64,000 nt of DNA from Diospyros lotus (Eukaryota; Streptophyta; Magnoliopsida; Ericales; Ebenaceae), in the NCBI RefSeq assembly GCF_014633365.1, contig NC_068344.1:32367170-32431169 (forward strand), given 5' to 3'. The translations under genes were made by a program, and so were the position numbers. Shown here piece by piece: positions 13,834-40,920 of this stretch. The notes beneath the pieces were generated by a model. It did no database searches, was not told where the DNA came from, and was given only the letters and a program-made list of their open reading frames with translations. Position 1 is the first letter of the stretch. Every line of letters begins with the position of its first letter.

Positions 13834-14250
13834 ACTAGTTTGATAACATTTCTTTCACATGTTATAATAATAGTTTAATAATCACTATGCAACAAACAAT
13901 TTTTTAATAAGTAAATATTATCTTGTCAACATCAACTTCCCATTGGTTCTGAGATTTCTTGACTAATGAAGATTTCATGTGTGACTTGGTATTTGAGAAG
14001 CTTGGCTGAGATCCGCCTCCACTACTTTAGGATGCCAATAACCGACAACACGCAAGGGGCCCTCTCATTCTCTCTTATATAAGCTAGCCAACCACTGCTC
14101 AAGATATGTTCTTAATTTTCAGTCTTACAATAACTCTACCATCTTGAACTCTTATTTATTTGAACTTCAGAATGCTTGTAGGTGCTATCTCCCGCCGTGA
14201 GAATTGTCATTGCCTCAACCTATCCATCTTTTAGACCGGAAGGAACATTG
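13834..14250. other. Unassigned DNA with a TATA-like box
   Basis: No gene is seen. TCTTATATAAGCTAGCC at about 14070-14087 looks like a TATA box on the plus strand, followed by leader-like sequence. The segment ends where homology to the DUF247 duplication begins abruptly at 14251, which is a rearrangement breakpoint. Confidence 0.35.
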
Positions 14251-14433
14251 CCCCAAGCCCACAGGGCTAGGCACGTAAGCTTGTGGCTTGAAAGCACTTA
14301 GAGCTGCAGAGGCACGAAATATTGAAACTGGAACGTCTATATCAATCATCACCCTTTTCTCGAGGATTTTGCTCGCTTGCTTGATCCATCTTTGCTCGCT
14401 GGAGCTTGATTCAAGGATTGAAGGTAAGTTCAT
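14251..14433 (-). pseudogene. Truncated DUF247 gene copy
   Basis: From the ATG at 14433 about 61 codons match the DUF247 start at 1-287, with changes such as E-to-R after ILEK and P-to-A after FRA. Just after the VP..VGLG motif the homology ends and the frame runs into unrelated sequence (14215-14250) and a stop. At most 72 residues could be made against the 400 or more usual for the family. The upstream TATA box (near 14488) survives. This relic belongs to the third duplication copy. Confidence 0.85.
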
Positions 14434-15510
14434 GTTGGCGATAGGCTATGCCTTCCTAGCAAACTTATGAAGATGAAGCCTTGCTTATATAGTGCTAAAA
14501 GGGCAACGCAACGTTTGAAAAAAAAAAACTGTTGAAGTGAGTTTTGAAATGGCAACTTTTGACTATATATATATGTCTACTTCATTTAAAACATGTTTAG
14601 GTGATGTATGAATTTACTCATATACCTGATAATTATAAGATTTTATCATTGTCAATTAATAATTCTAAATTTTGTTAATTCTTATTTTATTTTATTTTTG
14701 TACTTAGTAATTGAAATTATTGTTTGATGATGTTAATTACGTCAAATATGCCTAATTATTTTCATTATATTCACTTACTTCTAGGAAAGATGGAATTTTC
14801 TTCTATATCTTTTCATACTGAAGGCTTAGCTGATCAAAGATAAATCCTTGTGTGGAACACATGTTTAACAACTTTTAAATGTTTCACTGTAAGAGAAATT
14901 ACTAGAACTCTGGCGAATTGTTATAGCTTGAAGTTGGAATTGATAATATTTTGATCAAATTAAAATAAAAGAATTACTTATAGAAAGTATAATATAAAAT
15001 TTATTAATGTTGCTTTCTTAATTAATTTAAACATTTTGAATAATGTTACATAACAAAAGATAAATCAGTAAGATATTTGACTAACTTGAATTTCAACACT
15101 TTAAAATAAGTAATTCACAAAAAAAAATGACTTGTATTCTTAACACACTATATTTTTTTTATTTGTTTATTTACCAAAACAACCATCGCTCTCTTCTTTC
15201 TTTCTTTTTTTTTTCTAAAATAGTAAGATAGAATATATTTGGTGTACAATAATGCTCATTAAATAATTCATAATATGCTTGTCCGATTCTCATAGCTCTC
15301 TCTCTCTTAAATAATTCATAATATGCTTGTCCGATTCTCATAGCTCTCTCTCTCTCTCTCTCTCTCCATGTGACAGCCATGGAGGGACCATTCAAACTGT
15401 GGTACCTAGGAGGGACCATTCTTTATATATATCACGAGGAAAATGAATATCCCTGTTTATGCATGATAAAGAAGCAAGCGTCACACTCACTGATGTCATA
15501 TTTTTTTATA

Positions 15511-26072: not shown

Positions 26073-27337
26073 TATAATACCCCATGTTCGTATGAGATTG
26101 CTACGTAATTTTGGTAAGTTTAGAATACCGAAGAATTGAATTGATAGCAATTATAAGTACCGAATCTACTGTAGGGAGTGTCTCGGGGTGAAATTGTTTA
26201 AGGAGAATTATATGGTCTCGACAAGCGTATCGAGATAGGATTTATGGTATCGAAAGAAATCGAATCGGGAACGATTTTCAGTACAACTAAAATACAGCTG
26301 CTATTTAGGCTGCAAAACCGAATTGTCATAGGAGATTTCTATGAAGTCAACGGAACCCTAGGGGGGCTCCAATTTTTCGTAATAAGCAACCATTCAGTGG
26401 TTTCGAGATGAAACGACAGCCCGGTAAGGACATTAGGGCGAAATCGTTGTTATCGAGTAACTTTAAAGTTATTAATTTTGCGTTTTCGGTATTGAAATGC
26501 AAATTAATTCGATGTTTAAGGGCATAATTGCAGTAAGGGAATTAACCAAGTGAAATAGAGTTGGAATTCGAGATGTAAATATGTGATTTCTCTTGCATCA
26601 TAGTGTAATATATAGATATTATATATATATATATATATGCACATGAATGGCCAAGTTTCTCTGAAGCTTCAACGGCCAAGATTGGAAACTAGATTTGAGG
26701 AGGAAACCTGCAGTGGGTAAGGAGAAGAGATTTGAGAAGGTTGAAGCATTAAATGTGATGAGATTTGAGAAGGTTGAATCACTAAATGTGATGTGTATAT
26801 ATGTATGTACGTAGCAGTGTGGGGGCGTGAGGCCATGCCTCTGCAACTTCATTCCATACCACTGCAATGCCATAGCCATGCTTCTGCATTCGAGATTTGC
26901 GCAAAATTAGAGTAAATGGCAGTAGGATTTGAGGAATGGCAGCAAGATTATGATTAAATGTAATATATAATTTATACATATATATATATTATATATATAC
27001 GTGTTCTTAGTCGTAGCAAGCAAGCAATGGCTGCCTATAAATAGGTAGGGGGTTTGGCCAATTGAGAAGCAGCAAGGGAGATTGAGAGAGAATGTTGGAG
27101 CCGAGAGGGAGGGGCCTAGAATGGCCAAAATCGGCCATGGCAGCAGCAGCAAAGTTGTTGTTCGGCAGCCATGGCCGTGCGGAAACAGCTATGAACGGCA
27201 ATCAAAGGCTGCCAGCGAAGCAAGTAGTGATGGCGGCAATGGCGCGGTGACCGACGGCATCGGTGGAGCCCCAAAGGCGGCTAGAATGGGCTGCAACAAC
27301 TTGCGGCAGCCATGGCCGCAAGCTTCCAGCAGCTGGG

Positions 27338-29441
27338 TGATTAGTGGTTAATTTTGTAAAAATTTTGTTATAATTATACCCTTCTTTTGATCTTAAAAAT
27401 GGTTTAAATTAGATATTAATATATATTTTATGGTTATATGCAAGTTTAAATTGAAAAATGAATGAAATGAAATTTTAAAGTAAAATTTAATAATAATAAT
27501 AATAATATATAAAATTATATATAATACATATACATCATTATATGCATGCATGTAATATATATATATATAATATAATCTAATATATATATGTGCCATGTGT
27601 AATACATATATATAATATATAATTTATTAATAACATTAAATTATTATTATTATTATTTTTTTTTTTTAGGCATGAAGAATTCAAGCCCATGAAGACTTAA
27701 AGTCCATGAAGAATTCAAATCCATGAAGAAATCAAACCCATGAAGAAATCAAGCCCATGAAAAATTAAAGTCCATGAAGAATTCAAATCCATGAAGAAAT
27801 CAAATCCATGAAGAAATCAAGTCCATGAAGAATTCAAGCCCATGAAGAATTAAGGCCCAATTTGAACAACCCATGGAAAATATTATTTTGAGAAGGCCCA
27901 AGGATTATTTTTAATCCTAATGAAGATTAAAAACCAATTTATAGAAATCTATTTTTATTTTTTATGTGAGAGCTTTATTAGGTGTGTTTTTTAGCTAAAA
28001 TCCATTTAACTATTAGGTGGATGTTATAGCTAAAATCCATTTAACTTTATGAGTGCTTTATTAGGTATGTATTTTAGCTAAAATCCATTTAATATTAGGT
28101 GTGTATTATAGCTAAAATCCATTTAACTTTAAGTGTGTGAGTGCCCATTAGATATAATTATGTCTAATTGAATAATTGAAATTGTGTGGTTTGTATTGCA
28201 TCTTGTGGCCTATAAATAGCTCACTTGATTGCATTTGTAAGTGTGATTATTATTCTTGAATAAAAGTTTAGTTGTTTCCTTATAATTCTCTCTTTGAGAA
28301 TTGTTCTTGTTCTTTCTCATCTTCTTTAGTACTTTCTCTTATAATCTTACTTTTTTCTTTCTTCTTTTAAATTCTTATGTCATTTATTATTACTTTATTA
28401 TTCACCGCCTAAATGGCCGGTTAATTTGTGCCTTTAAATTTCTGCAATTTTAATTCTTGTCATTTAATTATTCACCGCCTAAATGGCCGGTTAATTTGTG
28501 CTTTTAAATTTCTGCAATTTTAATTCTTGTCATTTAATTATTCACCGCCTAAATGGCCGGTTAGTTTATGCCTTTAAATTTCTTGTCATTTAAATTCTGT
28601 TATTTAAATTACGTCATTTAAATTTATGTCAATTAACTTTCAAATAAAAATGAGTAGCTAAATCTAATCTTGGGTTAAGGCAAGGACAGTGTCCAACGCC
28701 AATGATTCCCAAAGAAAGCTGCGCTTTAAATAAGTAACATTAATTTAAATTTCAGTATGAGTGTGTATTAATTATTAAAAAATCACTAGGTTTGGATTGG
28801 AGCGTAAGCCTAACTTAGAGCTTTCATGCCATGTATGAGAGTTACTAGAACTGGAAACGCTATCATACCCAAATCCGGATGATTAATTTAGTTGTTTTGT
28901 GTATTAATTGCAATTGGATTTATGGTGGTTGCTTAAATTAGAATATCGCATATCATGTATGGGGATTGCTTAACCTAGAACTATCATCATCTCTAATTGC
29001 ATTTAATAACAAACCCTCATATCTGAAATTAAATTAATGTTGCTAATCTTTTATGCTAAAATTTGGGAATCAACGGGTTGGTACTGAAATTGTCTTAACT
29101 CAAGCACTATCCAAATTCATATTTTTACGTTTAATGTTTATTTTAATTTTTGCCTTACTTTATTTTCTAGTATCTGTTGTCTAAAAACAAAACCATAAAA
29201 AATCTTGTTGTCAATTTGTCCAAATGCGTGTGCGTGTGTGTGACATTCTTTTTCTTTTGCCATAAATAAATCTCTCAGTGGACGACCTGGATTCATCCAG
29301 AAAATATAAATATAAATTTGGACTACAACTGCACTCGTACACTGGCGAGTATAAACCTCTCACTAAAATAAAAAAAAAATATAAAAGTTTTATTATGATT
29401 TGTTTTTATTGTGTTTTAATTGCAGGGTGAGAGTGCAGCCA
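27338..29441 (+). repeat. 5' LTR of the LOG-bearing element
   Basis: Contains, in order: TA-rich microsatellites; a run of about ten CCATGAAGAA-type units near 27670-27850; four GCTAAAATCCATTTAA repeats at about 27990-28130; a TATA box (CCTATAAATAGC) at 28209-28220; and three tandem units of about 72 bp starting ATTCACCGCCTAAATGGCCG near 28400, 28470 and 28541. The transcript start is likely near 28245. ORFs inside are not genes. Confidence 0.95.
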
Positions 29442-29446
29442 AATTT

Positions 29447-29464
29447 TGGCGCCGTTGCCGGGGA
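29447..29464 (+). other. Primer binding site, tRNA-Asp
   Basis: Eighteen bases, TGGCGCCGTTGCCGGGGA, complementary to the 3' end (with CCA) of plant tRNA-Asp, five bases after the 5' LTR. Confidence 0.9.
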
Positions 29465-29586
29465 GATTAAGGCAAAAACAAAAAGAAAAAAATAAATAAA
29501 ATAAAAAAAAAGGAAAGAATAAGCATCTCTTGATAAAATCGGTAACTCTATTTCTCTTTTACTTTATTTTTGTTTGTGCATTGTAT

Positions 29587-30912
29587 ATGAGACTGAGATC
29601 AGGTAGAATTTTGAAACAGTATTTTCATATCATTCTGAGTCTTTACCTGCAATTGGATTGTCAACTTTACACTCATGTATCAAAATTACTACAATCTGTC
29701 TGCACAAGATACTTAGCATGATGAAAATTATCATTTTGAATCTGATTTGTCTAGACCTCTTAAGGATTATCTATACCCTCTTAGGCAAACCACTTTTGAT
29801 TTGCAATCAGACACTACCCATTTGTTACCCACTTACCATGAAATTGAGGTTTGGTGTGCTGTGTGTGAGACTTCAGCTCATTTAACGGATGACTGCCCTA
29901 TAATACCTGCTTTTAAGGAGGTATTGTATGGTCAATCCAATTACACACACACAACTATGAGAGAATGTATTACCAGAACCATGAGGAAAACTACCATTCG
30001 GACTTTGATGCATATCACCTTAATTCACACTTTCATCCAAATTTCTCATGGGAAAATGATTTTGTAGCCCAACCACATGAGCACTTCCTTTCCCAGCCTC
30101 AATCATTTCAAACGAATGAAGGGTCTACATTCGATGCATATCAACCCCCTCATGGGAGTTCATTAGAAGATACCTTCAATCTATTTATGCAAGGCCAAAT
30201 GGAAATTTTTACACAAATGTCCAAATGTCAAGAACACACCATTAGAGTTACAGATGACATTAGGAACCAATTGACACAGCTAACACAGACTTTGAGTATG
30301 TCAGAGCCTGTCCATCCCAACTCACTCCAAATCCCATTAATAAAACCCATCATCAAAAGTGAAAGTCAGGAGCAGGACATAGGAGTGACTGTCTTAAGGA
30401 ATGGAGAAATAATTGAGAAACTTGATGCCCCTAGGACAGTACACCTTTTGGTGCAAGAAAAGAGAGTGGTTGATCACAGTGAGGTAGATGTCAATGAAGC
30501 CTTGGAGGAAGAAAAAGACCAAAATGATGTAAGAAAAGAAGAAACCTGGGAGGAAGAAGAGGATAAAATCCGAGAGCTAAAATGTGAAGATGTCATAAGT
30601 TTATCCACATTTAAGCCTAAAATTCTATCTTTTAGGCTAGTCGATATTATTGGGGATCAAATTAAACTAAACATGTGTAAGGTGTTTGTGCAAATTAATG
30701 TGTCATACTCTGATGTAATAAAACCAACACCGCCGGATGATATATTTTCAAAATATGTATGTGCATTCATGAGAAAAATCAATTTACATAATTTTGAAAA
30801 TAACTTTAAAAGTGGTGTAGTCAATGAGAGATATTATACGATTAGGTGGGCAACCACTCATTTGATCCTTAACTGGAAGAAAAAAAAAAAAAAAAAAACT
30901 CTAAAAAAATAA
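29587..30912 (+). pseudogene. Damaged gag of the LOG-bearing element
   Basis: Fragments in shifting frames. MRLRSGRILKQ (29587 on) and then LSRPLKDYLYPLRQT (29747 on) resemble the gag N-terminus of Athila/Tat-type elements. A CCHC zinc knuckle, CAVCETSAHLTDDC (CX2CX4HX4C), lies at 29855-29896 and is followed by CPIIPAFKEVLYGQ. A frame change near 29965 leads to PNFSW and a long acidic tail (FNLFMQGQMEIFTQMSKCQE, then a Glu/Lys-rich stretch) ending in poly-Lys at 30912. The main capsid domain between N-terminus and knuckle is missing, and nothing resembling protease follows. The 315-residue frame 29965-30912 is open but probably not a functional capsid. Confidence 0.7.
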
Positions 30913-31105
30913 TAAAATAAAAATATATAATAAAATAATTTTATATATATATATACATATAAGTTGTTCCTTTTCTGCATTACTTAACTAGTGTTTCTCT
31001 ATGTGCAGTCTAAATAAAATTTCTCCATACGAGTTTATGTATTGAAGACCGCCAGGTATGCCTATCTTCTATCCTTTTATTGCCAATTGAGGACAATACG
31101 CAATT

Positions 31106-31119
31106 TAAGTTGGGGGGTA
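31106..31119 (+). other. Polypurine-tract-like motif, upstream of cargo
   Basis: AAGTTGGGGGGTAAGG lies before the cargo genes and resembles the true tract at 34761-34773. A third copy at 33340-33351 follows the cargo. The surroundings of the first and third also match (AGGTAT.CCTA, GCAATT.AAG), so the cargo is bracketed by direct repeats. Confidence 0.6.
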
Positions 31120-31205
31120 AGGTGTCTACAAAATTTTACCTAAAAAAAAAAAAATTAAAACAAAATTAATTAAAAAAAAAAAAATTGAATTGAGAGAGAC
31201 AGAAT

Positions 31206-31434
31206 TGACGCTGGTGGTAGCCATCTTTTCTTGGGCAGTGCAATCACACTGCCCTATAAAGAAAGAAGGCACACTGCCAAATGTTGAAAACAGAGGCGCC
31301 GAGCGTTGAAAAAAAAAAAAGGCACACTGCCAAATGTTGAAAAATGAGACGCTAAACGACATCAAGTCTGACGGTGCAATTATGGCATGCCTCGAGTCGA
31401 GTGTAGAATAGTGATGCCCATTGCTCTATAAGAG
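31206..31434 (+). promoter_or_regulatory. Candidate internal promoter of the cargo genes
   Basis: Two TATA-like boxes (CCCTATAAAGAAAG near 31252 and CTCTATAAGAG at 31424-31434), two TGACG motifs (31206 and about 31370) and a direct repeat of GGCACACTGCCAAATGTTGA (about 31267 and 31320) lie between the gag remnant and the cargo genes. This suggests transcription of the cargo independent of the LTR. Inference from sequence only. Confidence 0.45.
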
Positions 31435-31447
31435 ACTCCATATCTGT

Positions 31448-32124
31448 ATGAGGCAAGTCACCCCTCTTGAGCTCAATCTTCTCTCCTTTGTGTTATTCTC
31501 CGATCAGGTACTCTCATCCCTTTTGTAAAGTTTATAGTTCTTTACTTTCTTCTTAGTATAATTTTTTTTTTTTTTTTTTTGGATCTTTATCTCTCAAAAA
31601 TTCACAAGTACTATCCATCTCTCCCGCAGAATGATTTGAAAAAAATTTATGTTGCTAGGTGTGAAAGACTTAGGTTGTTGATGCTTAATAACATCCCTGA
31701 AGATATTCGTTGGCTGATCGAAGCAAAAGTTCGATTAGCTGGTGAAACTTCACCTAGTTTTAAGCATTTTCCAGGCTTAGGGAAGAGTAGTTTTGCGAAG
31801 AAAAGAAGAGCGAAAAGAGTGAATGGTTGTTACAAATGTGCTCGATGGACCTGTAACACACGATGCAAATCTGTGGGGTTTACGTCCATAAATCGAGAAG
31901 ATAAAATTAGTTTCATAAAGGATGGACTGAGTAAGGAGTCTCTGGATGATATCCGATTGACTCTTGAGACGCATCCATGTGGAATAGTGCAAAGAGAACT
32001 TCTTGCTTTATGGACCCAGTTCAGAAGTGACCACCAACGCTATAGTCTTGGGAATCTGACTAAAAACGACCCTGTTTGCCAATCTATAAGAAAATTGGAT
32101 GGGAAGCTTATCCCCGCTTCATAG
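31448..32124 (+). CDS. Cysteine-rich basic protein, plant-virus CRP-like, cargo ORF 1
   Basis: An open frame from 31579 to the TAG at 32122-32124 has no ATG at its start (codon TTG after 19 T). Two routes give a start: an ATG at 31448 whose 20-codon exon ends CAG|GTACTC at 31507 and joins in frame, phase 0, to 31630 after a CTCTCCCGCAG acceptor; or the internal ATG at 31681 (147 residues). The centre has a basic cluster KKRRAKR followed by C-X2-C-X4-C-X3-C (CYKCARWTCNTRC), then FIKDGLSKE. A basic cluster directly before a small zinc finger is the layout of the cysteine-rich nucleic-acid-binding proteins of carlaviruses and relatives, several of which suppress RNA silencing. Relationship and function are inferred; a plant zinc-finger origin is possible. 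The frame stays open after the TAG to the intron donor at 32166. Confidence 0.6.
31923..31974 (+). other. Hairpin motif, copy within cargo ORF 1
   Basis: CTGAGTAAGGAGTC and GACTCTTGAGACGCAT bracket an inner palindrome GGATGATATCC. GAGTC pairs with GACTC outside it. The flanks are the same as in the two copies after LOG (32971 and 33133), where the inner part is a different palindrome. Confidence 0.65.
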
Positions 32125-32166
32125 AAAGTGTTTAAGCCGTTTCTGGACGTAAAACCAGAGGAAGAT

Positions 32167-32271
32167 GTGAGCCACAATCACAACTACTTATACATACGCA
32201 TGATTTTTGTTTGTATTTATTTCTTGTTGAATTGTTGTATAGCTACTTTTGATAGCCAAACTTCTTTTCAG
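32167..32271 (+). other. Candidate intron between cargo ORF 1 and LOG
   Basis: GAAGAT|GTGAGC at 32166/32167 and a pyrimidine-rich CTTCTTTTCAG acceptor ending at 32271 define a 105-bp, AT-rich intron. The LOG ATG follows 20 bases later. Splicing of the upstream donor at 31507 directly to 32271 would make LOG the first large ORF of an mRNA. Not demonstrated. Confidence 0.5.
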
Positions 32272-32291
32272 GACATACAAAAGGAACAAAC

Positions 32292-32951
32292 ATGGAAGGC
32301 CAGTTAGTTCGTCGAATCAATACCATATGTGTACTTTGTGGCTCTCAACTTGGGAGCGATATTTGTTACGCACTTGCAGCGAGCGAACTTGGTAAAAAAT
32401 TAGGAGAGAAAAAAATTAATTTGGTATATGGGGGGGGGAGTCGTGGATTGAATGGTTATGTTTCACAAGCTGTACATCTTGGAAATTCATCTGTGGTAGG
32501 TGTAATGCCAATCCCTTTAGCTGAACCACATATTTCCGGGATTACACGCGGTCAACTTATAGAAACGACTTCTATGTCTGAGCGCATGGCTTGTAAGATT
32601 TATCAGTCAGATGCCTTCATTGCTTTACCAGGAGGTTTTGGAACACTTGAAGAAATCTTTTGTATAATCTCCTGGGCCAAGAGTAATCTCCATACCAAAC
32701 CCATTGGACTTTTAAATGTTAACCATTTTTTCGATGGGTTACTCTCTTTTCTTGATCAGGCTGTGGACCAACAGTTCATTTCTCGTTCAGCAAGAAAGAT
32801 TCTCATTTCTGCATCCACCATTGATAAGCTGCTAGAGAAATTACATGCTTATGTTCCACAGTACGATCCTCATGAGCCTCGGATAGACTGGTCTAAGGCA
32901 ATTAGTAACAAGCGCCAAAGGGGTCCGATTAATTTAGATTTATCACTGTGA
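32292..32951 (+). CDS. LOG: LONELY GUY-type cytokinin riboside 5'-monophosphate phosphoribohydrolase
   Basis: A complete 219-residue ORF, the usual length for plant LOG proteins (about 210-240). LOG enzymes cleave the ribose phosphate from cytokinin nucleotides in the cytosol, giving the active free base in one step. The start ICVLCGSQLG matches the family's xCVFCGS opening, LVYGGGSRGLNG (residues 44-55) is the glycine-rich nucleotide-binding loop, and PGGFGTLEE (113-121) is the lysine-decarboxylase-like/LOG signature. Arg98 and Glu121 sit at the positions of the catalytic pair. KPIGLLNVNHFFDGLLSFLD and a YVP motif near the C-terminus also match. Against typical plant LOGs, Arg51 and Asn54 in the loop and Met99 after Arg98 look unusual. 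Host LOG genes have several introns; this copy has none, as expected after capture from spliced RNA. It lies inside an LTR retrotransposon. Confidence 0.93.
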   Translation: MEGQLVRRINTICVLCGSQLGSDICYALAASELGKKLGEKKINLVYGGGSRGLNGYVSQAVHLGNSSVVGVMPIPLAEPHISGITRGQLIETTSMSERMACKIYQSDAFIALPGGFGTLEEIFCIISWAKSNLHTKPIGLLNVNHFFDGLLSFLDQAVDQQFISRSARKILISASTIDKLLEKLHAYVPQYDPHEPRIDWSKAISNKRQRGPINLDLSL

Positions 32952-32970
32952 GAAATGCTCTTTATTAAGA

Positions 32971-33010
32971 TGGCTGAGTAAGGAGTACTTTTTGTACTCT
33001 TGAGACGCAT
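32971..33010 (+). other. Hairpin motif, first copy after LOG
   Basis: A 40-base unit, identical to 33133-33172, with GAGTAC-TTTTT-GTACTC as a perfect stem-loop flanked by TGGCTGAGTAAG and TTGAGACGCAT. It begins 20 bases after the LOG stop codon. An RNA-level signal (3' end, stability or packaging) is possible. Confidence 0.8.
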
Positions 33011-33132
33011 CTAGTTATTGTACACCTTGCAGGATTTTTCTTGGTTGTGTTCTTTAAAAAAAAAAAAAAAAACAAAAAAAAAAAACAAAAAAACAAAACT
33101 GTGGAATGTTGTTAGCAAAGTCTATGATAAGG

Positions 33133-33172
33133 TGGCTGAGTAAGGAGTACTTTTTGTACTCTTGAGACGCAT
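33133..33172 (+). other. Hairpin motif, second copy after LOG
   Basis: Exact repeat of the 40-base unit at 32971-33010. Between them is a poly-A-rich block (about 33055-33098) interrupted by single C residues. Confidence 0.8.
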
Positions 33173-34760
33173 TTTGCTTATCTTATGACTTGCATGAAAT
33201 TTTTATTTTGGTGTGAAAATATAAATAAATATATATATGGTGTGTTCATTTGTTGTTTAAGTTTTAGCAGTTCACAGCAAATCTATGGACTTGTGGAGTT
33301 ACAGGTATTCCTAACAACCTTGATTTATTACTGCAATTCAAGTTGGGGGGTGTAAGGTCTAGTCATGAATTATTTGGTTCATATTTAACTGTGAGTTTGC
33401 TATTGCTAGTTTGTTGTCTTGTGGGAATTGATTATCTTTATCTGCTCTTATAAAAAAAAAAAAATTGTGTTTTAAATAATGCTATTCCTAAAGCTTTAAA
33501 GTTATGCACTGATAGCCGGTTAAGTTTGCAATACGAAACATGGATGCATTGATTTCTTATTTGAAAACGTTTATGCATGAGAATAAGTAATTTGCATTCA
33601 TCGGGGATTCAAAATTTAAAAATTGGTTATCGGTCATAAAGTCAAAGGTAACAGTAATTAGCTGATTAGTACATTGTATGATCCCTCAACAGAAGTGGAG
33701 ACTATTACCCAAGTAAGTGTTTGAGCCTAATAACCATTAATTCTGAGTGAAATAACACTTACTCTAAATATGCTCTCTTGTTTATCTTATCTTTTCAATG
33801 GCTTCAAAATATCAATTCGCTTTGAATGTCTAGTATGATAGCGGATGAATTTGACTGGTTTCAAACTTTGACTTAGATGACTGAGAACCATGATAGGGGG
33901 ATCAATTTCTTTCAGTTTGAGCCTATTAAACCTTTTTCTTTCTTTAAATTAACCTCCCTTGCTATCCCATTTGAGCCATTTGTAGTACAATTTCTTTCGT
34001 TACTCTCGGTTAACCCATAACCATATGAATTTTATCCAACCTGGTGTGATTTTGGGAATTAATCTGTCTTTCTATTTTCATATTTAAAGAGAAAAAGAAA
34101 AAAAAAGAGAAAAAAAAAGAAGAAAAAAAAAAAAAAAAAGGGCAAATTCTCTTAGCTATTCAGCATGACTGTTTCAAAATAAATGCTAAAAAAAAAAAAA
34201 ATCCCGACACACCCTTTGCACACTCTACATTTTTTTTGACAACTCGTATTAACCTTATAGCCCCATTACAACCAGTCTGGTCCCTGTTGATACTATAAAT
34301 CATGTGATCTCAGAATTCGAGTTTGGAGTAGGGAATCATGTTTAAATTCAGAAGTTACTCGTCTAGAGCATTATTCCAATCATGAAGCTATGTCAATTTC
34401 CCTGTTCTTTCATGAAAATACGTTCCTTGTATTTGGGATGGCACCGAGTTTTGAACTTGTTCTGCATTTACTCTTATAACGGTGCACCCCCTTGTGTGTA
34501 CACCTGAGGAATCCTTTTTATTGGAGAGAAAATCCATAGTAAGATTTGAAGTCAAAACTTTGAGGGAGTAAGTCTGTGTGTTGGTTATCCTAATTTCCAT
34601 TCCTGAGATTATATGACCTTTAACCAAAAATCTGATTTAGAATGATAAATTATTTATTCAATTTTATGCATTTCGGTTTCGAATTTAAAATTTTTACATT
34701 CATACAGTTATTAAAGCTTGGCATGTGTATAATCTGATTGCTAAGGGACTAGCAATGTTT
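33173..34760 (+). other. 3' non-coding region of the LOG-bearing element
   Basis: No supported ORF. The third polypurine-like motif is at 33340-33351, A-rich simple sequence at 34085-34140, and text such as TTGAGCCATTTGTAG and GGTTAACCCATAACCA of the kind found upstream of Athila/Tat 3' LTRs. The minus-strand ORF at 34388-34627 has no recognisable domain. Confidence 0.5.
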
Positions 34761-34773
34761 AAGTTGGGGGGTA

Positions 34774-36877
34774 TGATTAGTGGTTAATTTTGTAAAAATT
34801 TTGTTATAATTATACCCTTCTTTTGATCTTAAAAATGGTTTAAATTAGATATTAATATATATTTTATGGTTATATGCAAGTTTAAATTGAAAAATGAATG
34901 AAATGAAATTTTAAAGTAAAATTTAATAATAATAATAATAATATATAAAATTATATATAATACATATACATCATTATATGCATGCATGTAATATATATAT
35001 ATAATATAATCTAATATATATATGTGCCATGTGTAATACATATATATAATATATAATTTATTAATAACATTAAATTATTATTATTATTATTTTTTTTTTT
35101 TTTAGGCATGAAGAATTCAAGCCCATGAAGACTTAAAGTCCATGAAGAATTCAAATCCATGAAGAAATCAAACCCATGAAGAAATCAAGCCCATGAAAAA
35201 TTAAAGTCCATGAAGAATTCAAATCCATGAAGAAATCAAATCCATGAAGAAATCAAGTCCATGAAGAATTCAAGCCCATGAAGAATTAAGGCCCAATTTG
35301 AACAACCCATGGAAAATATTATTTTGAGAAGGCCCAAGGATTATTTTTAATCCTAATGAAGATTAAAAACCAATTTATAGAAATCTATTTTTATTTTTTA
35401 TGTGAGAGCTTTATTAGGTGTGTTTTTTAGCTAAAATCCATTTAACTATTAGGTGGATGTTATAGCTAAAATCCATTTAACTTTATGAGTGCTTTATTAG
35501 GTATGTATTTTAGCTAAAATCCATTTAATATTAGGTGTGTATTATAGCTAAAATCCATTTAACTTTAAGTGTGTGAGTGCCCATTAGATATAATTATGTC
35601 TAATTGAATAATTGAAATTGTGTGGTTTGTATTGCATCTTGTGGCCTATAAATAGCTCACTTGATTGCATTTGTAAGTGTGATTATTATTCTTGAATAAA
35701 AGTTTAGTTGTTTCCTTATAATTCTCTCTTTGAGAATTGTTCTTGTTCTTTCTCATTTTCTTTAGTACTTTCTCTTATAATCTTACTTTTTTCTTTCTTC
35801 TTTTAAATTCTTATGTCATTTATTATTACTTTATTATTCACCGCCTAAATGGCCGGTTAATTTGTGCCTTTAAATTTCTGCAATTTTAATTCTTGTCATT
35901 TAATTATTCACCGCCTAAATGGCCGGTTAATTTGTGCTTTTAAATTTCTGCAATTTTAATTCTTGTCATTTAATTATTCACCGCCTAAATGGCCGGTTAG
36001 TTTATGCCTTTAAATTTCTTGTCATTTAAATTCTGTTATTTAAATTACGTCATTTAAATTTATGTCAATTAACTTTCAAATAAAAATGAGTAGCTAAATC
36101 TAATCTTGGGTTAAGGCAAGGACAGTGTCCAACGCCAATGATTCCCAAAGAAAGCTGCGCTTTAAATAAGTAACATTAATTTAAATTTCAGTATGAGTGT
36201 GTATTAATTATTAAAAAATCACTAGGTTTGGATTGGAGCGTAAGCCTAACTTAGAGCTTTCATGCCATGTATGAGAGTTACTAGAACTGGAAACGCTATC
36301 ATACCCAAATCCGGATGATTAATTTAGTTGTTTTGTGTATTAATTGCAATTGGATTTATGGTGGTTGCTTAAATTAGAATATCGCATATCATGTATGGGG
36401 ATTGCTTAACCTAGAACTATCATCATCTCTAATTGCATTTAATAACAAACCCTCATATCTGAAATTAAATTAATGTTGCTAATCTTTTATGCTAAAATTT
36501 GGGAATCAACGGGTTGGTACTGAAATTGTCTTAACTCAAGCACTATCCAAATTCATATTTTTACGTTTAATGTTTATTTTAATTTTTGCCTTACTTTATT
36601 TTCTAGTATCTGTTGTCTAAAAACAAAACCATAAAAAATCTTGTTGTCAATTTGTCCAAATGCGTGTGCGTGTGTGTGACATTCTTTTTCTTTTGCCATA
36701 AATAAATCTCTCAGTGGACGACCTGGATTCATCCAGAAAATATAAATATAAATTTGGACTACAACTGCACTCGTACACTGGCGAGTATAAACCTCTTACT
36801 AAAATAAAAAAAAAATATAAAAGTTTTATTATGATTTGTTTTTATTGTGTTTTAATTGCAGGGTGAGAGTGCAGTCA
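34774..36877 (+). repeat. 3' LTR of the LOG-bearing element
   Basis: Same order of repeats as the 5' LTR. I see three base differences (each C in the 5' LTR, T here), a two-base shorter TA run and a two-base longer T run, giving the same 2104-bp length. TATA box at 35645-35656. Confidence 0.95.
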
Positions 36878-38394
36878 CTGGGCGGCATGGCGGCGAGACA
36901 AGGAAGAAGAAGAAGGAAAGAAGAAGAAAAAGAAAAAGGATGAAGAAAAAAAAGAAAAGAAAAAAAGAAAAAAAAAAGAAGAAAAGAAGAAGAAGCTATT
37001 GTTTGTAAGTTGCAAGGAGGAAGAAGAAAGGAGAAGGAAAAAAAAGAAAAAAAGAAAATAAAAGAAAAAATAGAAAAAAATGGGAAAAATTCTTGAAAAA
37101 ATTCTAGAAAATAGGAAATGAATATTTATTAATATTTCAGAGATTATGGGTAAGAAAACGGTTCAGGCGCGCATTTCAAGGATATGACACGCATACCGAG
37201 AAAGCTGGAGATGCTAAGTCAAGGTAAGTAAAATTTCCTAAAAAATTCTAGAAATTCAAGAATAGTGTTTTATGAATTTTCATAGTGAAATATTTGAGAA
37301 AATATTTAAGAAATATTTAGTTTGGATTTATTGAGGAAACATAGGAAGAAATAGAGAGAAAAATAAACAAAATGCAATAAATTATGCAAAAATAGGTTTT
37401 AATACTTATTTAATCAAATATGGTGATTAAGATGCTTTGAGATTTAAGTCAAAGTGACTCGTGCGAATTTTGAGGTTGGCATGCAAATTGAGGCGAGGCA
37501 CGAATTTCGAGGCGTGATGCGAATATTGAGGTAGCCCAATAAGCTCGAGGAGGTAAGTGGTACTTCCCAACTAGACCGAGTTTTATGGAAAATGCTTAGT
37601 TTGTAAGTGATTTATGTTCCTCGAAAATGTTTTCATCATATTGACATACCTTGATATGTATCCATCACGTAGACTGCATACATGACATGATTATGAAATG
37701 CATATGTACACGTTGATATCATTGATCATGTGCATTGTGGCCGTAGGGAGTACGAACTGATACCGCTACTTTACCAAGGGTGCCCCCATACACCCCGACT
37801 TCGAAAGATGTGGCCGTAAAAATGGTAGGTAGCATGAAGGGTGCAGTTGACACCTACGATGAGTAAGACATTGTATACACACATGATAAAATATTTTGTA
37901 CCTTTACTTAGATGATTCATCATCTAACTTGGGCTTTGCCCCTGGAATATCCAAATGTTGTAGATGGAGATTGCAGCAGATATGAGGATAAATGAGGCAT
38001 GAAATGACACTTAACAAAGTGCATGATGAATGAAATGTATGTAATGTAGCCCATGTATTTAAATTCTGCTACTTTGAATTCTAAACTTTTTGAGGAATGC
38101 TGATATATAACCTTATTTATGGTTAATGTTAGTTGAGAACTTATGCTTTGTATTGAGTTATGTTAAGGAACGATGATGTAAGATTTGAATTTCGATTTAT
38201 GTTAAGGTATCAGGTTATATCTTTACTTCCGCAATTTGATAGGTATAATAATTCTCTTTCGAGAAAAATAATTGGAAGTTCTGGGATGGATACGAGAAAT
38301 GATGTGATTTAGAATTAAGTTGAAAGAGAAAAAAAAATTTATTGTCCCAGAATTGTCCTAAGTTATAACGTACCCGAGAAAGCGGGGCGTTATA

Positions 38395-39714: not shown

Positions 39715-40920
39715 AGCGCAACTTTGTTTTGTAGATGGATTAAATTAGGTGGTGTGATAGGAGTTTGTTCGTTGGTTTCAACTATACCTTTCATTGGCTA
39801 CGACATAGACTTATATATAGAAAGTGACTAAAGAAAAAAGAAACGCTGAAATACACTAAGCTTTAGAAAAATAGAGGGAAAAAAAAAAAGAAACATACCA
39901 AAACTAAACAAGCATGATATATACAATCAATTATCATCACTTGAAATTGGTTTTTATTTCCCTCTTCCTTTAGTCCTTTTCTTTCCGTTGACTGAAGGAT
40001 ACATTTTTTTCCTTCGTTGTCTTGATGTCCTTTCTTCAAATGCAATCTCTAGTGGAATGTCACTTCTATGACATGAAAACTCACAATCATTTAGATCCGC
40101 ATCTTGGGTTGAACGTTGGCCAATGTTTGACAGATTATTTTTTTGAAATGGTTCATCACTAGTGGCTTCATAGGCATCCATATCATAAAAGTCTCGAGGT
40201 TGTGATTGTTGAACAACATACCAATTAGGTTTCCCTATTTCCCTTACATAAAACACCTGTTCAGCTTGACAAGCAAGTATAAATGGTTTATTAGTCTGCA
40301 ATGATCTATCAAAATTTAAGGAAGTGAACCTGTAATTATCTATCCTAATTCGTCTTCATTGATTGTATACATCTCTCTAATCACACTTGAATATACTACT
40401 CGTAAACCATTAAGATATTGCAATTCGATAATATTCATTAACACACCATAGTAATCCACATTACCAAGGGTGGGGTTACCATCTCTCGCAGTTGCAAAAC
40501 TATTAGTTTCCCCCCTCACGAAAACTCCACTATTTTGAGTTTTTAATTATTTCTCTCAATCTCGGGTGTGGAGCTGAAAACCATTAACAATGTAGCCTTT
40601 GTATGACAATGCACTATGATTTGGCCTTCAAGCAAGTGATAACAAATGATTGATGACTTTGCCATTTTCTGAATTATGCATTTGTGTCACCTATCCCTTT
40701 AAAGGGAAATGTGTTAAATAACAATATAGTCCAAATGAACATCATTGAACATGTAATCATAAAATATTTAAATGATACATATTGGATCTTAATATACTTA
40801 CTTGATGCTCAAACCAACTTGGGAATTCTCTATTATGAATGTTTTCTACATTTCTAGGATGGCAATAGGTTAGAGATTGGACCACCAATTGTTTGTGTTC
40901 TCTATTTTAAATTACACACA
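39715..40920 (-). pseudogene. TNP2-like CACTA transposase, C-terminal remains
   Basis: Minus-strand fragments: EHKQLVVQSLTYCHPRNVENIHNREFPSWFE (about 40910-40815), ENGKVINHLLSLA and YKGYIVNGFQLHTRD (about 40675-40560), NPTLGNVDYYGVLMNIIELQ (about 40480-40400), then FILACQAEQVFYVREIGKPN and WYVVQQSQPRDFYD (about 40290-40170) and a basic tail. These follow the order of DUF4218/DUF4216 at the C-terminus of TNP2 transposases. The N-terminal catalytic region is absent, so the element cannot supply transposase. Several stops and frame changes are present. A short helical exon (MKGIVETNEQTPITPPNLIH, about 39800-39715) lies between this and the Ptta exons. Confidence 0.75.

Follow-up and report, generated by a model that had tools for sequence, protein, structure and literature searches.

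Results

An LTR retrotransposon with two cargo genes in Diospyros lotus

The DNA analyzed here is a 64,000-nucleotide stretch of the Diospyros lotus genome (contig NC_068344.1, positions 32,367,170 to 32,431,169; hereafter 'the window'), which contains a retrotransposon that carries two cargo genes between its long terminal repeats (LTRs). One of these genes encodes a relative of the cytokinin-activating enzyme LONELY GUY (LOG). The other, located just upstream, encodes a protein of the viral nucleic acid-binding protein (NABP) type, a group that also goes under the name of cysteine-rich proteins (CRPs). All features described below are on the plus strand unless noted otherwise.

The element is bounded by LTRs of 2104 bp each (27338..29441 and 34774..36877), both with TG...CA ends, and is flanked on its left (27333..27337) and right (36878..36882) by the target-site duplication (TSD) CTGGG, to which no strand applies. 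An exact 18-nucleotide primer-binding site (PBS), TGGCGCCGTTGCCGGGGA, lies 5 nucleotides after the 5′ LTR (29447..29464) and is, we presume, complementary to plant tRNA-Asp. Beside the 3′ LTR is the polypurine tract (PPT) AAGTTGGGGGG (34761..34771). Paired LTRs, a TSD, a PBS and a PPT are thus all present, as expected for an LTR retrotransposon. According to the available portion of PMC6317226, tRNA-Asp PBSs make up 6% of those of plant LTR elements, and 5-bp TSDs make up 93.4%. The two LTRs are nearly identical, as evident by the fact that they differ by three substitutions, each a C in the 5′ copy and a T in the 3′ copy, and by two dinucleotide indels. This divergence places the insertion at approximately 55 to 102 thousand years ago, when rates of 1.3e-8 (about 55 thousand years) or 7e-9 (about 102 thousand years) are assumed.

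The LOG-family open reading frame (ORF; 32292..32951) is open, complete and intronless, and encodes 219 amino acids followed by a stop codon. It matches the Pfam family Lysine_decarbox with an E-value of 4.2e-33, and carries the PGGxGTxxE motif, such that both the fold and the motif of the LOG family are present. The NABP ORF (31579..32124) is 181 codons long. When frames are measured from stop to stop, the three longest in the entire 64 kb all belong to the element: a gag-like frame of 331 amino acids, the LOG frame of 231 and the NABP frame of 217. The next longest frame is 169 amino acids, and therefore the LOG ORF is far above what is expected by chance. A preliminary description of this locus had reported both the LTR retrotransposon structure and the intronless LOG ORF, and each was confirmed. 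That description treated LOG as the only cargo, and so overlooked the adjoining NABP ORF, as well as the lack of detectable pol genes and two additional PPT copies that are described below.

The motif AAGTTGGGGGG occurs exactly three times on the plus strand of the window and zero times on the other strand. All three copies fall within the element, and the two internal copies (31107..31117 and 33340..33350, the latter downstream of the cassette) flank the NABP and LOG genes. The presence of three PPT copies would be explained if the cargo had been joined to the element at its polypurine tract.

The element lacks a detectable pol region

Between the 5′ LTR and the cargo lies a gag-like remnant that is split over two overlapping frames. 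The first (29717..30064) includes a CCHC zinc knuckle, CAVCETSAHLTDDC (29855-29896), which was recognized by eye, and the second is the frame of 331 amino acids noted above (29917..30912). No match to reverse transcriptase, RNase H, integrase or protease was found in Pfam searches at E<=1 of all 14 sense frames and of 9 of the 11 antisense frames of at least 50 amino acids in the internal region. The element presumably moves in trans, because it carries no detectable pol. We also considered whether it might be autonomous, and this was rejected on the basis of the same Pfam searches, since protease, reverse transcriptase, RNase H and integrase are the components that define an autonomous element. 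By its PBS and PPT, which we take to resemble those of Athila/Tat elements, it is probably a Ty3/gypsy-type element on the Athila/Tat side.

Related sequences are present in D. lotus. Four homologues of the gag-like ORF were found at E<=0.001, and two of these are D. lotus proteins with 92% and 50% identity. Furthermore, the nearest LOG relative among the matches listed is also from D. lotus (97% identical, representing a cluster of 8 member sequences). The sequences on which the two gag-like relatives reside measure 45.05 and 47.76 Mb, whereas that given for the LOG cluster measures 38.82 Mb, and this distribution fits a family that is dispersed in Diospyros. Within the window itself, searches with the LOG and NABP proteins (tblastn) and with the whole element (blastn), each at E<=1e-5, yielded no further copies. 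The matches were all internal to the element, except that a few tens of bases of flanking DNA beside the 3′ LTR also matched outside of it.

The LOG cargo belongs to a divergent clade with a distinctive tail

The predicted structure of the cargo LOG protein adopts a confident LOG fold that is nearest to those of the Arabidopsis proteins 2a33 and 1ydh. Its C-terminal tail (residues 204-219; 32901..32948) is predicted to be disordered, with a predicted local distance difference test (pLDDT) score of <50, and contains basic residues followed by the sequence LDLSL at the C-terminus. Basic clusters often serve in nuclear import, and the EAR motif, through which corepressors are bound, has the consensus LxLxL. 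The tail therefore carries an LxLxL motif in a position that is expected to be exposed.

To establish how widely these characteristics are shared, we used the best 120 of 7848 LOG relatives at E<=0.001 (among 7999 candidates scored). Seven of the 120 were dropped for length. The window protein together with the listed homologues of 195-245 amino acids, minus 8 host-like sequences and 6 of a type from Xanthoceras sorbifolium, gave 100 clade rows. This list is dominated by poplar-like sequences, and for this reason it was also clustered at 85%, 70% and 60% identity. In a host-rooted tree of the 49 rows that remain when redundancy is removed at 85%, 43 cargo-type sequences form one clade (support 100/95), one Xanthoceras-type row is its sister, and five host LOGs stand apart. 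Identity between the cargo LOG and the host LOGs used for comparison is approximately 50%.

The tail is characteristic of this clade. An LxLxL end is present in 87 of the 100 clade rows but in none of the 8 full-length host LOGs, and the basic cluster that precedes it (scored at residues -25 to -5) is found in 92 of 100 and 0 of 8, respectively. After clustering, LxLxL is retained in 37 of 43 (85%), 20 of 24 (70%) and 6 of 7 (60%) clade rows, as opposed to 17.6% for shuffled versions of each tail. The motif requires four changes on the LOG tree. The Xanthoceras type scores 0 of 6 for the basic cluster in the scored interval, although all six proteins have such a cluster further on.

The active site is also altered. 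Of the Arg-Lys pair that is conserved before the PGG motif, the cargo protein keeps R98, whereas M99 replaces the Lys. All 10 host rows have this Lys, as do the bacterial structures 5zbj and 1t35, whereas 41 of the 43 non-redundant clade rows have I, M, L or T in its place. In contrast, Arg98 and Glu121 are each kept in 42 of the 43. Of the two Pseudomonas structures compared, 5zbj has E at the site corresponding to Glu121, and 5zbk (with AMP) has A. Given the divergent clade, the extra tail and the loss of a Lys adjacent to the active site, cytokinin-releasing activity should not be assumed for this protein. It nevertheless keeps the fold, R98, E121 and the PGGxGTLEE residues, and one could propose that it is a normal, active cytokinin enzyme whose tail has no function. 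We find this doubtful, since the tail is retained so widely in the non-redundant clade and the Lys has been replaced in nearly all of its members.

The Xanthoceras proteins (P0034, P0059, P0073, P0075, P0076 and P0083) retain the Arg-Lys pair and are sister to the cargo clade. By sequence, they are possibly intermediate between host and cargo LOGs. The preliminary description had proposed a simple capture of a host LOG gene, and this simple form is not supported for a protein with such a divergent position, an added tail and a missing Lys. Capture of a spliced LOG transcript is nonetheless plausible.

A virus-type gene adjoins the LOG gene

The NABP ORF passes the Pfam cutoffs for two viral families, that for PF05515 Viral_NABP (35.4 bits versus a cutoff of 23) and, by a narrow margin, that for PF01623 Carla_C4 (21.1 versus 20.9). 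In an alignment of 28 family sequences, including that of the window, PF01623 is matched by 26 and PF05515 by 25 (E<=0.01). The window protein has the basic stretch KKRRAKR followed by the zinc finger-like sequence CYKCARWTCNTRC (31828-31866). These are common characteristics of its relatives, as evident by the occurrence of K[KR].RA[KR] in 100 and of C-x2-C-x4-C-x3-C in 101 of the best 120 among 527 homologues (E<=10). Each of these 120 proteins also has a precomputed Carla_C4 domain. The predicted structure of the window protein is weak (mean pLDDT of 67), and its profile matched no solved structures up to E=10.

Two short repeats located just downstream of the LOG ORF (32959..33010 and 33121..33172) are 92% identical to each other. 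Both share exact words of 13 and 15 nucleotides with the NABP ORF (at 31927 and 31960), and they are perhaps remnants of further NABP copies. Upstream of the NABP ORF is a possible internal promoter (31206..31434), which includes TGACG at 31206 and 31369 and the octamer TATAAGAG at 31427. This octamer is found four times on the plus strand of the window and is thus weak evidence for a promoter. A possible 3′ splice site, CAG/G (32269..32272), lies just 5′ of the LOG start codon. Searches of the element for RNA families returned zero matches at the gathering score.

Relatives of both genes in other eudicots

From their sequences, many relatives of both cargo genes are recognizable in other eudicots. 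Named NABP relatives among the best 120 of 527 come from Populus, Orobanche, Xanthoceras, Acer and Rhamnella, and the clusters in this list range up to 566 member sequences. The cargo LOG clade, among the best 120 of 7848, includes sequences from Populus, Rehmannia, Reevesia, Diplodiscus and Pterospermum, and its clusters contain as many as 327 member sequences. Three LOG proteins of this clade (P0001, P0033 and P0037) carry the public annotation 'LOGL10' in Diospyros and Populus.

It is conceivable that a host LOG transcript was copied only once and by chance, and that the resulting passenger DNA is destined to decay. Capture of host genes by plant LTR elements is documented (available portion of PMC7264820), the LOG ORF is intronless, and this copy already shows changes at the NABP start and in the gag frame. 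We nevertheless regard a one-off event as quite improbable, because the cargo LOG shares its clade and its tail with many sequences from other eudicots, because this tail is absent from the 8 full-length host LOGs, and because D. lotus has relatives of both the LOG and the gag-like ORF. There are also signs that the NABP partner has been retained beside LOG elsewhere.

These signs are of two kinds. First, NABP and LOG domains are joined in a single protein in three gene models from Orobanche gracilis (P0164, P0191 and P0225), one of which ends ...RKRSLDPLDLSL, like the cargo LOGs. Second, three contig sizes of >2 kb (8723, 4511 and 2128 bp) appear in both the NABP and the LOG match lists, each with a matching source, where 0.18 such pairs are expected. 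At least three pairs of equal size arose in 0.16% of 5000 trials. This test used a hand-typed subset of the NABP and LOG matches, from which nearly all chromosome-scale rows, many contigs of <2 kb and P0200 (>2 kb) were omitted, and an equal size does not prove that two contigs are the same. The proteins of the three pairs are 67-74% (NABP) and 52-56% (LOG) identical to those of the window. Because of the equal-size contigs and the joined Orobanche gene models, the data suggest that NABP and LOG might travel together as a unit.

The joined gene models also bear on the prospect that the arrangement in the window is an assembly join or chimera. This is scarcely credible given that the LTRs, PBS, PPT and TSD are mutually coherent, that NABP and LOG are also joined in Orobanche, and that the gag-like ORF and LOG have close relatives in D. 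lotus.

Another explanation is that an ancient, endogenous virus-like gene pair existed beforehand and was picked up by one retroelement lineage, such that spread by retroelements would have occurred only in some plants. The membership of NABP in the viral families PF05515 and PF01623, the possible promoter upstream of the gene pair, and the fact that the cargo is seen inside LTRs in this window only are all favorable to this explanation. However, three scans of IMG/VR yielded no viral contigs confirmed to encode relatives of NABP or LOG at E<=1e-3 (0 of 7, 0 of 14 and 0 of 132 pattern matches), a weak negative in that few plant RNA viruses may be included in this collection. On balance, we judge such an origin to be unlikely.

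Other features of the window

A frame of 133 amino acids on the minus strand (39954-40355) matches DUF4216 (E=2.1e-12). This domain is typical of plant CACTA transposons, and the frame is probably a transposon remnant. The first 23 kb of the window hold many diverged direct repeats, for example a 1286-bp pair at 87% identity (104-1312 and 14250-15505), and represent older repeat or nested element debris. A scan for tRNA genes in the window, which was run with the bacterial code, found none.

Discussion

We conclude, with a probability of roughly 0.6, that the window contains a young, non-autonomous Ty3/gypsy-type element that is mobilized in trans and that carries an old NABP-LOG cassette, which would have been selected for manipulation of the host. 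An autonomous relative would supply the missing functions. The NABP and LOG genes would move as one cassette, also within LTR elements of other plants, and would have been joined to the element at its polypurine tract.

Several roles can be envisioned for the two proteins. The NABP might act like viral CRPs, either as a silencing suppressor or as a transcriptional activator, such that the element escapes silencing or dividing cells are favored. It could do so by protecting the RNA of the element or by switching on growth genes. The LOG protein, acting in the nucleus or locally, could release cytokinin and thereby promote the division of cells that give the element access to the germ line. Alternatively, a LOG protein with an altered active site might bind nucleotides in the nucleus and recruit TOPLESS-type corepressors via its EAR-like tail. 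The benefit shared by these possible activities would be a larger pool of cells that divide and are less silenced, and through which new copies could enter the germ line. Precedents for the NABP activities come from viruses. According to the available part of one article (PMC12172455), suppression of RNA silencing is common among the CRPs of carlaviruses, and that of chrysanthemum virus B functions as a transcription factor and induces hyperplasia.

A number of observations weigh against our conclusion. The functions that we assign to the NABP and LOG cargo are inferred, and enzyme activity may have disappeared together with the conserved Lys (M99 here). LxLxL is a short motif, and leucine-rich tails such as these reach it in 17.6% of per-tail shuffles. 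None of the 6 proteins of the Xanthoceras sister type has LxLxL, yet all 6 have a basic cluster close to the C-terminus, and so the basic cluster may predate the LxLxL motif. The set of host LOGs used for comparison is small, comprising 8 full-length proteins and 2 fragments derived from PDB entries, of which 5 remain in the tree. Cluster sizes for NABP (<=566) and LOG (<=327) count member sequences, in which samples may repeat, and are not genomic copy numbers. Although we expect the relatives elsewhere to reside in LTR elements, LTRs have been seen directly in this window only. Likewise, the lineage of the element is uncertain, since no gag homologues could be identified outside of Diospyros and the frames of the element match neither the Pfam gag nor the Athila models. 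Finally, this copy appears to be partly decayed. Its gag region is divided between two frames, and its NABP ORF starts with TTG (the first in-frame ATG is at 31681), whereas the aligned homologues start with Met, as judged from their protein sequences only.

Plant Gypsy elements with LOG cargo are already known, contrary to the suggestion in the preliminary description that no such cargo had been described. A YgdH/LONELY GUY domain has been reported in Gypsy consensuses of Citrus sinensis and C. clementina, and in those of Populus trichocarpa only when the filter used in that study was not applied (Alvarado-Marchena et al., 2022; PMC9289625). The authors present this finding as being in line with Steinbauerova et al. 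(2011). These elements resemble ours in having a LOG-family domain inside a Gypsy-type LTR element. However, the consensuses were found via their reverse transcriptase, and the available text of that article makes no mention of an NABP partner, a C-terminal tail or an active-site change. It is these three characteristics that are new here.

Similar comparisons can be made for the NABP. The CRP/NABP proteins of carlaviruses, allexiviruses and mandariviruses combine PF05515 and PF01623 with a basic stretch and a zinc finger (PMC12172455, as available), as does the window protein. Unlike these viral proteins, the window NABP is 181 amino acids in length, is carried by a retrotransposon, and has no virus genes that could be found around it. 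Extra ORFs upstream of the 3′ LTR are also present in Retand (TRP28), Ogre (plant mobile domain) and Athila (env-like), and those in env-like elements are in the sense orientation, as in our element (PMC11963269; PMC6317226; PMC7264820). By comparison, the element in the window has a different cargo, consisting of two unrelated genes, and no detectable pol. Neither NABP nor LOG is among the extra ORFs of plant LTR elements in the accessible portions of these three articles. Another parallel comes from Phalaenopsis, where Gypsy elements keep as cargo an AlkB m6A demethylase, a domain that is also used by flexiviruses (PMC9289625, in part). The cargo described here differs in being a flexivirus-type gene paired with a relative of a hormone enzyme. 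A flexivirus replicase-like insert has been reported in cucumber (Chiba et al., 2011; PMC3136472), and the phrase 'nucleic acid binding' does not occur in the available text. Among the article titles listed, within a coverage that leaves out most subscription journals, we found nothing relevant on carlavirus-type NABPs in retrotransposons or on EAR or TOPLESS in connection with LONELY GUY in LTR elements.

A broader proposal, which we put forward tentatively as something possible rather than probable, is that a widespread lineage of eudicot retrotransposons keeps a two-gene kit. One gene would encode a flexivirus-type silencing suppressor or transcription factor. The other would encode a LOG protein that has been remodeled, by a nuclear, TOPLESS-recruiting tail and a changed active site, into a nucleotide-sensing or cytokinin-producing transcriptional regulator that serves the element. 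Viral CRPs and retroelement NABPs would then constitute one gene pool whose members move between RNA viruses and LTR elements.

Sequences of the cargo clade that are named as host LOG genes, as with 'LOGL10', could distort counts of the LOG gene family. In the available part of PMC9289625, LOG cargo is a domain entry for which no use is proposed, and the adjoining CRP-family gene suggests a testable purpose for the pair. If our interpretation is correct, the NABP-LOG cassette would be the retrotransposon counterpart of a viral pathogenicity module, with implications for the origin of the CRPs of flexiviruses.

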